Shown: piece after piece, positions 104 to 37,021 of the stretch
How the letters are laid out: every line of letters begins with the position of its first letter
How positions within the stretch are numbered: position 1 is the stretch's first letter
Assembly (NCBI RefSeq): GCF_000169195.2
Contig: NC_016023.1
Location: 1,488,001 to 1,552,000, forward strand
Source: Heyndrickxia coagulans 36D1
GTDB taxonomy: Bacteria > Bacillota > Bacilli > Bacillales > Bacillaceae_C
DNA length: 64,000 nucleotides
Direction of reading: 5' to 3'
Translations under genes and position numbers: made by a program
Notes under the pieces: model-generated
What the model saw: only the letters and a program-made list of their open reading frames with translations
Told to the model about the DNA's origin: nothing
The model's database searches: none

Positions 104-1474
104 TCTCCTACTATGATAGCGAAAAACAGCCTGAATAATCAACTACCAAATGAAATAAAATCAACATTTAAAGAGTTGAATGTGTTGAAACACTTGCGAA
201 TCGCCGGTATTACGAAGTCCTTTGGTTTTTCTTGTGCCTACATTTTTCAATTGATTTTTTGTATGATCTTTGAAAACAAAAACTGGTTCAGGATGTTGGA
301 AAGTAAGAAAGCTACAGACATTCCAGCCAAAGATACCGTTTATCGGTTTCTCAACCAATCAACGTTCAACTGGCGTCGTTTCCTCCTTTCACTGGTTGCC
401 TCAGTGATTGGAAAAGTTTCGAAATTGACACGTCATGACCGTCCGAAAGTATTGATTTTAGATGATTCATCTTATGACCGGAACCGAAGCAAACACGTTG
501 AGCTCCTGGCTCGCTGCTTTGATCATGCATCTCAAAAAATGCGTTTTTACAAAGGATTCCGCATGTTGACATTAGGATGATCTGATGGCGCAACATTCCT
601 ACCCGTTGACTTCTCATTATTGAGTTCGAAAAAGAGCCAGATCAACGGCATATCCGAAAATATCGATAAACGCAGCTCCGGTTATAAGCGCCGAAAAGAA
701 GCATTACAAACGGCACCAGAACAGATTCCCGGCATGATTGCCCGGGCGATGAATTCTGGTATCGATGCTTCCTATGTTCTAATGGATTCGTGGTTCACCC
801 AACAACCTCTCATCAAGGAGATTACAGAACAAGGTCTTGACGTAATTGGTATGGTCAAAAAATTAAAACAACGCTATTTTGTCGATGGTAAGCGTGTTAG
901 CCTAGATGAATTGTATCGTCTAGCTAAACCGACTAGTGGAAAGAAAGGAATCTTGCGTTCCATCCATACAACGCAGGCCAATGGCGTGCCAATTAAAGTT
1001 GTCTTTGTTCGCAACCGCAACAAGAAAAGCGACTGGTTGGCGATTTTGAGTACAGACTGTACACTGAGTGACCAGGAAATCATCCGTATTTACGGGATGC
1101 GTTGGGATATTGAGGTTTTCTTCAAAACAACAAAGTCCCTATTAAAACTACAAAAGGAATTCCAGAGTCGTTCATATGACGCGCTTATCAGCCACACGAC
1201 CATTGTGTTTGCAAGGTATATTGTCTTGTCATGGCAAAACCGTTGCAGTGTAGATGACAGAACATTAAGTGGCATGTTTTATGAATTATGTGATGAAATA
1301 GATGACCTTGATTGGGCTGTTGCATTGCAGCAGTTAGTCGAGATTCTTGAAGATACTCTGGATAAAAGTAATAAGAAAATTCAACAACTGATCAAAAGTC
1401 AACTACAACAATGGATTGCGGGTCTGCCGAATTATATCAAGGTATACCTACCTGTTTCAGTCTGCGAAAGTTGA
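101..1474 (+). pseudogene. IS4-family transposase, interrupted by one in-frame TGA
   Basis: One reading frame runs from GTG 101 (or ATG 113) to TGA 1472-1474, about 457 codons, and is interrupted only by TGA 578-580. Translation continues in the same frame as SDGATFLPVDF, so a single TGG-to-TGA change at a tryptophan is the simplest cause; this is not a frameshift. The DDE residues look intact: first Asp in LDDSS, second in VLMDSWF, and a C-terminal Y-(2)-R-(3)-E-(6)-K signature in YGMRWDIEVFFKTTK. That signature is diagnostic for IS4 transposases. Without stop read-through the product is two fragments, so autonomous transposition is unlikely. Confidence 0.85.
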
Positions 1475-1957: not shown

Positions 1958-2281
1958 TGTCCTTCACAATGGCGATGAGGATACCGCCATGCAACCTGTC
2001 TTTCACAATAGGGGCGAAGGACACAGAGAAGAATCCCGCTGCGGAAAATATCTTTCACTACGGGAATGAAGGACACACGGAAAAGCTCCGCCAAGCCAAA
2101 TGTCCTTATAACGGGGATGAAGGACAAAAGGAGAATCGCCGGCGCCCCAAATGTCCTTCATAACGGGGATGAAAGACAAAAAGAGAATCCCCGTCTCCCG
2201 AAATGTCTTTCACAACAGAGATAAAGAAAAAAGGGATAGCCCGCCGCGCAATTTGTCTTCCATAACAGAAAAAGAACAAAG
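1958..2281. repeat. Array A: 7 hairpin units, about 52-bp period
   Basis: Seven degenerate copies of a palindromic core (TGTCYTTCAY, about 7 nt, RTGAARGACA) begin near 1958, 1997, 2049, 2101, 2152, 2204 and 2254. Apart from the first step, spacing is 50-52 bp. Linkers are purine-rich and similar to each other. The same core and period occur at 34333-35090. Because 52 is not a multiple of three, any translation changes frame at each unit, so the array is not coding. It fills most of the gap between the small membrane ORF and the DUF1646 gene. Confidence 0.8.
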
Positions 2282-32829: not shown

Positions 32830-33182
32830 CCTGGAAAGCAGCCTTCTTATCTCAACCCTATACTGAATCCCTTATATGTTTGAACCGGCTGAATCTGAAC
32901 CGTGACAGCAGTCTTGTCGGTTGGTTGGACAGCATTTGTAGAAGGGCGTGTTGATTTTTTGGGAGGTGTCCGGCTGACAAATTACCGGTAATGTCTGCGT
33001 CTGGCTGCTTTGTGATTTTTTTAACAAAAACGAAAAAAGGGTGTACCGATGTGCAAAGAATGGGTACGAACGGAAAAGGGAAGTAAAGCTGTGGGACATT
33101 GCGGGGGAAAATGACCTTGGTATGTGGCCGAGGCTCTTCTTTTCCAGCTTGCACACCAGGGCTTAGAATGCTCGCCTTTTTT

Positions 33183-33216
33183 GGTTTGGCTTTTGGATGA
33201 TGCCAAACCTTTTTTC
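33183..33216 (+). terminator. Orphan Rho-independent terminator
   Basis: GGTTTGGC (33183-33190) / GCCAAACC (33202-33209) followed by TTTTTT. No gene lies directly upstream, which suggests a non-coding transcript or late pta read-through termination. Confidence 0.7.
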
Positions 33217-33429
33217 TGGTTTATACGGCATGCTGGGCGGAGCCATTTTATAATGGAAGATTTTGGGGAGAAAAGGAGGTTGGGCTGAATTTGATGGCAC
33301 CCGGAATTGGAGTGCGGCCGGGCAGTTTTTATGGGTTCAGCCCCATTGTAAAGGGATTTCGGCCGCAGCTTTTTGGTAGTCAATCCGTCATGATATGATA
33401 GTAGTAAAATAAATGGGGGAAGGATCAAC

Positions 33430-34263
33430 ATGGAAGAAGCGCTGCAATTGCTGAAGCAGCCCGAGTGGCGGGTGATGGACCAGTCCGGGTTGGGCCTGCA
33501 GTTTGAAGCGGCCCAGTCATTTGCGATGGACGACACATTGTGCACCGCTGTCGGGGCAAACGCATCCCCGGCTGTTGTCCGGACATGGGTGCATCACGAC
33601 ACCGTCAGCCTTGGCATTCAGGATACAAAATTGCCCTTTCTTGAGGAGGGGCTTGCCGTTCTTAAAAATAGAGGGTTCCGGTATATTGTCCGTAATTCGG
33701 GCGGGCTTGCCGTTGTTTTGGATACGGGTGTGCTGAACATTTCGCTTGTGGTCCCGGATACGGAAAAGGGGATGGATATCAACCGCGGTTACGAAGCGAT
33801 GTGGAAGCTGGTCCAAATGATGTTTTCGGATTTTCCGGTTGTGATTGAAGCAGGGGAAATAGCAGGCTCGTACTGCCCGGGAAGCTATGATTTGAGCATT
33901 AGGGGGAAAAAATTCGCCGGCATCTCCCAGCGGCGGGTCAGGAGAGGGGTGGCCGTCCAGATTTATTTGTGTGTGACGGGAAGCGGCGCCGACAGGGCAG
34001 AACTCGTTCGGGATTTTTATGAGCGGGCAAAACAGGGCGCGGAGACAAAGTTGCAATACCCGTGTGTCCGGCCTGAAGTGATGGCTTCTTTGGCGGAGCT
34101 TTTACAGGAAACACTCACGGTCCAGGATGTGTTCATGCGGCTTTTGCAAACGCTGAAGACGCTGGGGAGCCGGCTTGTGTCCCGCCCGCTTTCGGAACAG
34201 GAAACGGAATGGTACGGCAAATATTATGAACGCATGCTGGAAAGAAACGCACGGTTTTTGTGA
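33430..34263 (+). CDS. lipL: Octanoyl-[GcvH]:protein N-octanoyltransferase LipL (YwfL)
   Basis: The product is 277 aa of the lipoate-protein ligase/BPL fold. It moves octanoyl groups from GcvH to E2 subunits by amidotransfer. The conserved nucleophile Cys lies in [11 protein letters not shown] near residue 150, followed by the lysine-containing [15 protein letters not shown]. Length and place after pta match B. subtilis ywfL. The ATG has GGGGGAAGGA upstream. The downstream side is occupied by the large repeat array. Confidence 0.88.
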
Positions 34264-34298
34264 AGAATGAACGATCAAGGGCCACCTGCTGATCTGAG

Positions 34299-35095
34299 GA
34301 AAGACATTTTTGAAACGTGGCCGGTTGCCTGCTGTCTTTCATGTGCGAGATGAAGGACAATTTAAAGTGGCGGTAGCCCGTTTTTGTCTTTCATTGGGCG
34401 AGTGAAGGACATTTAGAGGTTGTGGCGACTTTATTTTGTCCTTCATGGGGCGGATGAAAGACATTTGGGGTCGGAGATGGTCTCTGTTTTGTCCTTCATA
34501 AAGTGGATGAAAGACATTTTGAAGCGCGGCTGGTTGGCAATTGTCTTTCATGTGCGAGATGAAGGACATTTTAAAGTGGCGGTAGCCCGTTTTTGTCTTT
34601 CATTAGGCGAGTGAAGGACATTTAGAGGTTGTGGCGACTTTATTTTGTCCTTCATGGAGCGGATGAAAGACATTTGGGCTCTGTGCTGTCTTTGATTTGT
34701 CCTTCATCGGGTGAATGAAGGACATTTTAGGGTTATGGCGAGTTTGTTTTGGTCTTCATGGAGCGGATGAAGGACATTTGGGCTCTGTGCTGTCTTTGAT
34801 TTGTCCTTCATCGGGTGAATGAAGGACATTTTAGGGTTATGGTGAGTTTGTTTTGGTCTTCATGGAGCGGATGAAAGACATTTGGGGTCAGAGATGGTCT
34901 CTGTTTTGTCCTTCATAAAGTGGATGAAAGACATTTTGAAGCGCGGCTGGTTGGCAATTGTCTTTCATGTACAAGATGAAGGACATTTTAAAGCGGTGGC
35001 AATCATTTTTTGTCTTTCATCGGACGAATGAAGGACATTTTGGGGTTGAGGCGATTTTGTTTTGTCTTTCATAAAACGAATGAAAGACATTTTTA
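34299..35095. repeat. Array B: 15 palindromic units at 52-bp period
   Basis: Cores of TGTCYTTCAT, about 6-7 nt, then (A/G)TGAARGACA start at 34333, 34385, 34437, 34490, 34542, 34594, 34646, 34698, 34750, 34802, 34854, 34907, 34959, 35011 and 35063; a half unit lies at 34299. Steps are 52 bp, twice 53. Linkers of about 25 bp are related (TTTNGGG... ...TTTTG). Units 1-3 are repeated as 5-7 (209 bp apart), 8-9 as 10-11 (104 bp) and 4-5 as 12-13 (417 bp). Frame changes at each unit, so it is non-coding. Confidence 0.9.
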
Positions 35096-35102
35096 AGACG
35101 TG

Positions 35103-35730
35103 GCTCCAAAAAGACACTTGGACGGCGACCAAACTTTCCTTTTAGGAGCATTTCAAAAAGGCAAAAAACATTCGTGTCAGCCAAACCGACCCCCGATAGA
35201 AGTTTCAATTAGACAAAAGAACAAGCGGGTCATGTTAAACTGTCCAATTAGGATTTCCAATTGGACAAAAGATCCGCCTCTGCCATGTGTTTTGGCCCTT
35301 TAGAGTAGATCAAAAAGACAAAACGCACCTGGAAATCAGCCCAATTATCCCTTAGAACGTTTCAAAAAGCCAAAAGGCGCTTGGGGAACGTGCCAATTGT
35401 CCTTTAGAACGTTTCAAAAAGCCAAAAGGTGCTTGGGGAACGTGCCAATTGTCCTTTAGAGCGTCTCAAAAAGACAAAAGACACCTTGACAGCGTCCAAA
35501 CTGTCTTTTAGAATACCTCAAAAAGCCAAAACGCACCTGGAAATCATCCAAACTGTCCTTTAGAACGTTTCAAAAAGCCAAAAGAAACCTAGCTAGCGTC
35601 CAAACTGTCTTTTAGAACATCTCAAAAAGACAAAAAGCGCCTGTGAATCAAACAAACTGTCCTCTAGAGTATCTTAAAAGCCAAAAGGCACCTAGGGAAC
35701 GTCCCAATTATCCTTTCATGCAACAAAAGC
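35103..35730. repeat. Array C: diverged subfamily, same 52-bp period
   Basis: It continues array B in phase. Units read TGTCCTTTAGAACGTTTCAA then AAAGMCAAAAG, with starts near 35398, 35450, 35502, 35554, 35606, 35658 and 35710 and degenerate ones from about 35135. The outer TGTCYTT/AAAGACA arms are those of arrays A and B; the inner part differs. One unit contains GTCCAATT/AATTGGAC (35242-35267). Confidence 0.8.
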
Positions 35731-35754
35731 CGGGAGATTGCCGGCTTGCACGCC

Positions 35755-35791
35755 AAACACCCATTGAGCATGCATCGCCCAATGGGTGTTT
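35755..35791. terminator. Terminator of rsfA
   Basis: AAACACCCATTG (35755-35766) / CAATGGGTGTTT (35780-35791), a perfect 12-bp stem located 20 bp after the rsfA stop on the minus strand. Confidence 0.75.
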
Positions 35792-35810
35792 GTGTTTACT
35801 CGCCCGAAAC

Positions 35811-36521
35811 TTATTCCGCCAGCTTTTCGAGATTGCCGTTGCGGTCCATTTTAAATTTGGTTGCCCCGGTTTCGTCTTCTTCGAAAAGGACGTATTTTCT
35901 CGCGCGGTTCATGATTTTCATCAAGGTTTCGTAGTCTTCCTGCATGGTAACCGAACCTTCTTCGAGCTCTTCGACGCGTTTTTTCAATTCTTCCGTTTCC
36001 TTTTTCAATTCCTGGTTTTCGTGCTTCAATCTTGCATTCTCACTTTTTAAAATCGTGCTTTGGAATTGCGTATTGTTCAAGTATTGCAGATAGCTGATGA
36101 CCTTGACAAGGCTCATTTCCCCGCTGTTTTCGGCCGCCTGGGAAACTTGAGGGCTGCTGTTTTCAGCTTCTTCCCCGTCCGGAGCAGGTTGTTCCGGAAA
36201 TTCAGCAAGCGGTATTTCGCCAATTTCCTCGAGTGTTGGAACCGGCGGCTGGTACAGCAGTTTCTTTTTCCCGCCCTGGTCTTTTCCAAGCAGGCGCTGG
36301 CGTTGTTTGCGCTGTTTTTTTGCAAGCTGCAGCGCCTGTTCGTAGTTATGGCGGACAACCGCATTCCAGCGGAAACCGCAGGCGGCGGATGTACGGTTCA
36401 GCTTATCGCCGACTTCCTCAAATGCATTCAGCTGCGTGCTTCCTTCGCGCACGTGGCGGAGCACTGTTTCCGCCAGCAACAAATCATCTTCTTCGCTCCA
36501 CGCATCTTGACGTGATTTCAT
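35811..36521 (-). CDS. rsfA: Prespore regulator RsfA (YwfN)
   Basis: The product is about 236 aa: an N-terminal Myb/SANT-like domain (residues 1-60, [21 protein letters not shown]... [11 protein letters not shown]), a Pro/Glu-rich linker, and a coiled coil (about 145-200, [20 protein letters not shown]). RsfA fine-tunes sigma-F-dependent genes in the forespore. ATG 36521 has GGGGGT 7 nt upstream; ATG 36527 is too close to it. A sigma-F-like promoter lies upstream. Position next to ywfO agrees with B. subtilis. Confidence 0.88.
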
Positions 36522-36562
36522 TCTCATTACCCCCAAAATGTAAATTTTTTGTTTGTACTAAG

Positions 36563-36591
36563 AGAATGGACAAAAAACACGTAATTTATAC
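36563..36591 (-). promoter_or_regulatory. Sigma-F-like promoter of rsfA
   Basis: On the minus strand GTATA (36591-36587), 15 bp, then GTCCATTCT (36571-36563). The sigma-F consensus is GYWTA-N15-GGNNANNNT; the second G is replaced by T. Confidence 0.4.
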
Positions 36592-36740
36592 CAATATGGT
36601 AAAAAAATAATAGAATTTTAGCGCGCAAACGGATTTTTGCTTGTAGCAACACAGTCGGGAGGCACACGAGAGAAGCCAAAATGCCCATTTGGGTTGCCTA
36701 GGCAAGGATTCTGGTGGCTTTAAATGCAAAGGTTTTAAAA

Positions 36741-36884
36741 AATGCAGCCATTGCAACCTGATACAACAGATAGAAAGGGCAGCATCCCGCATTTTCACGG
36801 ATACGCCCTTTTAATGCAGCCGTTGATACCTGGTTCAACGCATGGAAAGGGCGGAGTCCCGCATTTTCGCAGATGCGCCCTTTT
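36741..36884. repeat. Two tandem 72-bp hairpin repeats
   Basis: Copies 36741-36812 and 36813-36884 are directly adjacent and agree at about 58 of 72 positions. Each contains AAAGGGC ... GCCCTTTT, i.e. a terminator-like hairpin ending in T. They lie in the 500-bp gap between rsfA and ywfO, which otherwise shows only a TATAAT at 36986-36991 before ywfO. Confidence 0.8.
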
Positions 36885-37021
36885 ATTGGGATTTTAAAAA
36901 AAAAACAAACTTTTCAATCGACCTCCACATTTTAAAAGCTGCCTATCCGCATATTACAAGCCTTTTTTTCTCGCACCTGTCCCGGTATAATAGAATTACG
37001 ACATCAGGAAGAGGGTAAAGC

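Follow-up and report, generated by a model that had tools for sequence, protein, structure and literature searches.

The 52-bp palindromic repeats between lipL and rsfA of Heyndrickxia coagulans: members of a published satellite class with a possible architectural role at the DNA level

Introduction

The window analyzed here is a stretch of 64,000 nucleotides from the genome of Heyndrickxia coagulans 36D1, a single contig of 3.55 Mb in which it occupies positions 1,488,001-1,552,000. Between the convergent genes lipL and rsfA, as already recognized in a first-pass annotation, it carries an array of palindromes repeated at a nearly constant step of 52 bp. The annotation added that no named element has this form. 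Such a name exists: 52-nt satellites of Bacillus, including Bacillus coagulans, were catalogued by Subirana & Messeguer (PMC8161180), and the array is one of them. The authors described the sequences as species-specific and the constant length as lacking an obvious explanation, and proposed roles involving nucleoid proteins or small RNAs (PMC8161180; PMC8625621). The locus raises their question of why unrelated Bacillus repeats all measure 52 nt, to which helical phasing would be a direct and testable answer.

Structure of the array

The array, termed array A, and its surroundings are listed in Table 1. The spacing given in the first-pass annotation was reproduced: palindromes are 27 bp long, and the 14 steps comprise 12 of 52 bp and two of 53 bp. 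A search for the core with ≤2 mismatches returned 17 matches in the window, 15 in array A and two near 2.1 kb, as compared to 0 matches in 100 dinucleotide-preserving shuffles of the window. Conserved arms and variable linkers, which had also been described, were evident from the mean modal base frequency of array A (arms 0.94, 7-nt centre 0.59, linker 0.65); TGGT replaces TGTC in two of the 15 units (34750, 34854). The extent had been given as 34299..35095. The array within it is real, but the end at 35095 is wrong, as decayed copies, a palindrome of a third type and a second array, array B, lie beyond. Array B begins 53 bp past the third-type palindrome, and its arms differ from those of array A.

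Table 1. Repeats and flanking genes at the lipL-rsfA junction, with further 52-bp arrays. Positions are those of the window, except for the family D arrays, which are given by locus.
Feature	Position	Strand	Description
lipL	33430..34263	+	left neighbour, lipoyl protein ligase domain; convergent with rsfA
Half unit, truncated first unit	34299..34332	.	right palindrome half GAAAGACA and linker, from the sequence; the TRF array begins here
Array A	34333..35089	.	15 palindromes TGTCYTTCAT-N7-ATGAARGACA, 52-bp step; holds a duplicated 209-bp block
Array A, palindrome starts, first half	34333, 34385, 34437, 34490, 34542, 34594, 34646, 34698	.	
Array A, palindrome starts, second half	34750, 34802, 34854, 34907, 34959, 35011, 35063	.	
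Decayed unit-like pieces	35090..35240	.	between arrays A and B; presumed, read by eye
Lone palindrome, third type	35241..35267	.	TGTCCAATTAG-N5-CCAATTGGACA, 27 bp; palindrome search
Array B	35294..35716	.	about 8 units TGTCYTTTAGA-N5-TCAAAARGMCA; 27-bp span and 52-bp step as in array A
rsfA	35811..36521	-	right neighbour, Myb-like DNA-binding domain found; gene name from the first-pass annotation
Short third 52-bp array	1997..2178	.	A type, 3 units counted; TRF and core search
Family D array, L134	6787-7398		
Family D array, L135	5651-6021		
Family D array, L136	4452-5089		
Family D array, L144	13139-13510		
Family D array, L146	2568-3168		

The duplicated block of array A comprises four units, and units 1/5, 2/6, 4/12, and 8/10 are identical at 98-100%. 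Because of this duplication the linkers cannot be regarded as 15 independent sequences. Units 1-4 have common arms and differing linkers at an overall identity of 56-67%; hence, the identity of the arms reflects more than recent copying.

Relation to the published 52-nt satellites

By eye, array A corresponds to family 8_52_18 in Table 1 of PMC8161180 (TGTCCTTCAT...ATGAAaGACA), array B is of the same type as family 2_52_35, and family D of the same genome corresponds to family 1_52_139. Array A has a repeat of 52 ±1 nt, at least four repeats and a regular structure; it is non-coding and belongs to one of several families in one genome. Species group, 52-nt length, non-coding position, and the presence of several families per genome are shared with the published satellites, for which PMC8161180 counts 1886 tandem repeats of 51-53 nt. 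Array A is a confirmed case of this class.

The satellites were called species-specific by their authors, whereas the arrays analyzed here are not: the exact A core also occurs in other relatives and genera. To the published account we add an outer box that recurs in 29 of 135 genera of the order, five A/T patches per unit, a register kept at most junctions between families, a preference for convergent gene ends, and arms without covariation within families. In the main text of PMC8161180 (2021) the word stems palindrom-, curv-, bend-, and periodic- have 0 occurrences; the count covers this text, which itself cites an earlier paper of the same authors (J. Bacteriol. 2020). Additionally, family D was noted as a fourth 52-bp family; it has long arms (CTTCCTTAAC/GTTAAGGAAG), lacks a TGTC box, and shows only a weak 10.4-bp signal.

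Conservation across the order and turnover within the genus

The outer box TGTCY-N17-RGACA, required for two dyads at a 52-bp step with the rest left free, was searched in 397 genomes of the order and found in 66, representing 29 of 135 genera; the reversed control gave 0 matches among these 397 genomes. This generalised pattern occurs 208 times in the H. coagulans 36D1 genome. The exact A core is present 86 times in the host genome; of 100 relatives 12 contain it, and the reversed control gave 0. Among named genomes at least 114 stretches contain it, under at least about 19-20 genus names, mostly of Bacillales; a match in a Gallicola bin was discounted as a lone copy within a called gene. The inner arms vary by species and family (TTCAT, TTTTGA, AATTRG, CGAA, AGTAGA, GATTGA, and others). 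Judging from these matches, a large group of repeats keeps outer box and geometry in common, and the statement that there is no sequence conservation therefore needs amending. Repeats without a TGTC box exist as well, namely family D and 21 of the 27 published repeats that were typed.

Within genera the arrays are patchy. The nearest relative searched, whose LipL is 97% identical, carries three exact units at the lipL-rsfA site, with linkers that by eye resemble those of units 1-3. With this finding, and with the core present in many other genomes, the concern that the array might be an assembly artefact became unlikely to hold. Downstream of lipL, a third species of the genus (G004, locus L183) has a 52-bp array of different sequence in which the palindrome is largely decayed; the 10.4-bp phase is kept (share 0.168, p 0.012). 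This array looks as if the dyad had been lost and the length kept. Faint unit-like pieces were seen by eye at the lipL site of a fourth species (G003). The site of a fifth (G001) showed no array and a different neighbour gene, and no array was present at the lipL site of the nine further relatives examined. Within the genus, it is the sequence and copy number of the array that change, and its site is kept.

Helical phase of the repeat unit

It had been proposed that 52 bp equal five helical turns of 10.4 bp. The present data carry this idea further, since A/T patches recur about every 10.4 bp, also within the linker. Averaged over 103 arrays, A/T-rich steps peak at unit positions 5-8, 17-20, 26-28, 37-39, and 49-51, that is, five patches per 52-bp unit at an uneven spacing of about 8 to 12 bp. 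In 115 TGTC-type arrays the 10.4-bp component (fifth harmonic) took a share of 0.309 of the power in the first 12 harmonics as compared to 0.083 after column permutation, and 83 of the 115 exceeded the 95% null. For 18 other arrays of 50-54 bp the shares were 0.252 and 0.083, with eight above the 95% null. As a unit average, 10.4 bp was the top harmonic in 70 of 103 arrays but in only 11% of 3369 single random 52-mers; such 52-mers from the same loci had a 10.4-bp share of 0.045 (of 26 harmonics).

Some loci were doubly sampled from one genome and are included in the covariation, curvature, and first periodicity counts; key tests were repeated on distinct arrays (100 instead of 103, and 130 instead of 133). 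With duplicates removed, 76 of 112 TGTC-type and nine of 18 other arrays were above the null, and the shares were unchanged in the 112. By eye, nine of the 18 other arrays consist of mutated A-type units, and the remaining nine comprise five of family D and four others. Of these nine arrays of truly other sequence, one reached p<0.05 for 10.4 bp; the combined p is 0.002, the D arrays being related.

TGTC-type arrays have a common core and hence do not provide independent tests of phase, which come instead from the linker and the published repeats. Linker A+T is 0.63 at the centre and 0.45 at the shoulders, and the centre is higher in 73 of 103 arrays (71 of 100 distinct ones), these positions having been picked after inspection of the profile. 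The A/T phase of the linker is -107 degrees, that of the core -90, so that the two are in phase. In units with arms other than type A the linker centre is A/T-richer in 28 of 30 arrays (p 1e-5) and phase coherence is 0.67 (p 1e-6); in type A units it is A/T-richer in 53 of 80 arrays (p 1e-5), and phase coherence is weak at 0.19 (p 0.058). Furthermore, 27 published consensus repeats (50-54 nt, 13 species), typed from Table 1 of PMC8161180, were analyzed. Among them, 10.4 bp tops the first 12 harmonics in 16 and all harmonics in nine, reaching p<0.05 in 16, and 11 repeats do not have it on top. The 21 published repeats that lack a TGTC box gave a combined p of 1e-8 for 10.4 bp, or 3e-7 for the 18 left after near-duplicates were dropped.

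The signal of array A itself is modest (share 0.104, rank 4 of 26), and array B has a share of 0.135 and rank 2. Curvature calculated by a rough wedge model was 1.42 as compared to 1.10 for shuffled sequences, in which base composition only was preserved, and it was higher in 50 of 58 arrays; when linkers were altered alternately by +5 and -7 bp, it fell to 1.08 and the native value was higher in 56 of 58. The best reading of these data is that the length of 52 bp is set by helical phase.

Register between families

Where confidently typed units of different families adjoin, 13 of 19 junctions deviate by no more than 2 bp from a multiple of 52 (binomial p 1e-9, chance 5/52). The 13 in-register junctions are non-independent, as they come from three genomes and mostly from two, and six of the 19 are out of register. 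By genome, six of 10 junctions are in register in the host, all six in loci of certain or apparent Alkalihalobacillus bogoriensis origin, one of two in H. coagulans DSM 1, and none of one in Ureibacillus. Steps between units of the same family are exactly 52 bp in 568 of 672 cases, 51 bp in 42, and 53 bp in 18, the remainder being mostly multiples. Slippage within a family does not by itself predict a register across families.

Genomic placement

None of 116 arrays with at least two units overlaps a called gene by >40 bp. Among the 79 arrays with both neighbours called, 28 lie between convergent, 44 between co-directional, and seven between divergent genes, as compared to 100, 341, and 115 background gaps, respectively (chi-square p 1e-5); genes were called with a home-made trained scorer, and arrays from one genome are not independent. 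The host genome alone has nine convergent, nine co-directional, and one divergent array. In a stricter set with at least three exact units the numbers are 19, 29, and four, and one of 102 arrays overlaps a called gene. The arrays stay clear of genes and divergent promoters and are found preferentially where convergent genes end. A gene linked to the arrays was sought in 148 neighbours, which were drawn from 169 within the set limits of size and distance; no recurrent family was present, the most common one accounting for at most five of the 148, and a linked gene was rejected.

Isolated A palindromes with both neighbours called (n=13) lie between convergent genes in eight cases, one of which is the discounted Gallicola copy, and between co-directional genes in five. 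Since none of the 13 is located between divergent genes, these palindromes do not look like operators. Loci L012, L025, L032, L041, L055, and L073 each carry a single isolated A palindrome between convergent genes.

A DNA-level element at gene ends

Our preferred reading, to which we give slightly less than an even chance, is that the array acts as an architectural element at the level of DNA, bent or wrapped, with a putative dimeric protein on one face. Each 52-bp unit would comprise five helical turns with one A/T-rich patch per turn, so that the DNA would be bent or easily wrapped in one direction. The single 27-bp dyad of each unit, with its conserved outer half-sites TGTCY...RGACA, would always lie on the same face. 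Dimers of a sequence-tolerant DNA-binding protein might then occupy one dyad after the next and keep the curved DNA regularly coiled or wrapped at the ends of genes, where it could act on local topology or insulate the neighbouring, often convergent, transcription units. Binding of a protein, formation of a wrap in cells, and its effect are thus putative parts of this model; geometry, phasing, conservation of the outer box, arms without covariation, and intergenic placement are observed. Against the architectural reading stand the failure to find a partner protein or a family common to the flanking genes, the common core of the arrays, the weak linker phase of type A units, and the modest signal of array A. 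The few significant results in arrays of truly other sequence, the 11 published repeats in which 10.4 bp is not on top, the uneven spacing of the patches, and the six junctions out of register also count against it.

A wider proposal can be put forward only tentatively: the 52-nt satellites of Bacillales may represent a sequence-tolerant wrapping code, with five in-phase A/T patches and one dyad per unit, as a bacterial counterpart of nucleosome-positioning DNA that a putative architectural protein would load into topological insulators at gene ends. A code of shape predicts that sequence changes from species to species at constant length. If this were true, some bacteria would carry a dispersed, sequence-flexible DNA-shape element between their genes. 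The conserved outer box could serve as bait for finding the partner protein.

Alternatively, the arrays might be non-functional satellites, multi-unit segments of which are duplicated or lost by recombination or replication slippage, with placement reflecting tolerance and period and palindrome being merely inherited. We regard this as rather unlikely, yet it accounts for the duplicated 209-bp block, for the three exact units of the nearest relative at the same place, and for patchy occurrence within genera; neutral satellites, too, would avoid genes and promoters. Furthermore, the 10.4-bp signal is weak in the nine arrays of truly other sequence. Because of this weak signal and the weak linker phase of type A units, the neutral explanation was weighed up and the architectural one down slightly. 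A neutral origin has difficulty with units 1-4, which share arms and not linkers, with an outer box and step recurring in 29 of 135 genera, with 13 of 19 junctions at which different families stay in register, and with an unconserved linker that keeps its A/T patch.

An improbable alternative is that the arrays attract gyrase in the manner of the BIME-2/REP elements of enterobacteria, which likewise form intergenic palindromic arrays with a possible gyrase link (PMC6379681): the enzyme would be recruited by phased, bendable DNA at sites where genes end and positive supercoils accumulate. The G/C content of E. coli gyrase sites varies in phase at 10-bp intervals, and gyrase cleavage is enriched at BIME-2 elements (PMC6379681). 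Phased G/C variation of about 10 bp in intergenic DNA is also found in our arrays, and their preference for convergent gene ends would suit such a role. The conserved TGTC...GACA box and the exact 52-bp step are left unexplained, and in E. coli the accumulation of gyrase downstream of transcribed units is not accompanied by higher motif scores at these positions (PMC6379681).

Pairing of the palindrome arms

The first-pass annotation had left a choice between an array of bound proteins and a series of RNA hairpins, and had remarked that arm changes often keep pairing possible. The protein alternative fits the data, with no protein found, and hairpins are disfavoured, as pairing fails as a rule: within families, no compensatory change was detected. 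In family A the Y/R positions form a Watson-Crick pair in 169 of 294 units with 168.6 expected (distinct arrays: 160 of 279, expected 159.9). Departures from the array consensus were one-sided in 99 cases (43 G.T, 32 A.C, 24 transversions) and compensated in nine, and co-directional arrays had 20 U.G and 21 A.C on their transcript strand. Among 49 degenerate units in register, 59 changes were one-sided and none was two-sided. An apparent covariation of the arms (2412 pairs as compared to 2260 in a within-array shuffle) was caused by mixed families in compound arrays and vanished once families were separated. On either side the dyad is flanked by A/T, and on one strand these flanking bases are mostly identical and not complementary. 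At the second flanking position they are identical in 74 of 78 units of the host genome (three paired, 31 expected) and in 199 of 275 units of the named loci (68 paired, 132 expected). The arms are without compensatory change within families; hence, RNA pairing is not what is kept, and RNA hairpins under pairing selection were rejected.

An element acting as RNA, with transcribed chains of hairpins that would serve as small RNAs, sequester a protein, stabilise 3' ends, or terminate transcription weakly, thus appears very improbable. It could draw on transcripts of 52-nt repeats reported from B. coagulans RNA-seq (PMC8625621; PMC8161180), on the palindrome folding as a hairpin in the three units folded, and on terminator-like sites, of which window positions 34200-36000 contain 11 as compared to 2.3 in shuffles. 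In co-directional arrays the transcript corresponds to the purine-rich strand in 26 of 37 cases (26:11, p 0.02), but in the stricter array set this bias is not significant (16:8, p 0.15). Compared to shuffles, the linker folds only marginally better (mean z of -0.21 on one strand and -0.46 on the other), so that a general linker hairpin was rejected, and Rfam gave 0 matches in window 33000-37000 at E up to 1. In addition, hairpins need neither a fixed 52-bp step nor a fixed 7-nt centre. The sequence evidence suggests that shaped or protein-bound DNA between genes is more likely than RNA. As a separate observation, arrays with exact A cores have a pyrimidine-rich and a purine-rich strand across flanks, centre, and linker, both in the host genome and in the named loci.

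Candidate partners and other repeat systems

No partner protein for the arrays was found among RemA, Lrp/AsnC, Y1/RAYT, Hfq, and the neighbour genes. RemA-like proteins of B. subtilis have been proposed to wrap repeats rich in A/T (PMC8481266); RemA was rejected as an obligatory partner, as the array-rich genome G054 (76 array pairs) gave no RemA-like match, and Lrp/AsnC likewise, with no AsnC match in G172 (154 array pairs). Hfq is present in 44 of 44 genomes and therefore uninformative. REP elements are associated with RAYT, whereas mobilisation by Y1/RAYT was rejected for the arrays: the host genome has one broken fragment of 40 positions with a stop, and G116 (277 array pairs) has none; in all, 40 of the 44 genomes gave some Y1 match, both array-bearing and array-free ones. 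Carriage by phages or plasmids was dismissed as well, since viral contigs gave 0 exact-core matches and plasmid and phage collections gave no BLAST match to the window array.

CRISPR arrays resemble array A in their regular short and partly palindromic repeats; they differ in that the linkers of array A recur (units 98-100% identical) and are not unique spacers, and in that many arrays exist per genome. The search for cas genes covered the two immediate neighbours, the genes for the lipoyl ligase and the Myb-domain protein. Similar in tandem arrangement, unit size, and one palindrome per unit are plasmid centromeres, for example sopC with 43-bp repeats that each contain a palindrome. The arrays described here differ from them as many dispersed chromosomal copies, and the window array has no BLAST match in plasmids or phages.

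Additional observations

Beside rsfA, TRF detected two direct copies of 72 bp with 80% matches (window 36741-36885). An ORF with a DDE transposase domain (window 734-1471) lies near the short 52-bp array. In Neobacillus mesonae, an A-type array was found (L020, 175-558) in which all listed steps are 51 bp and not 52.
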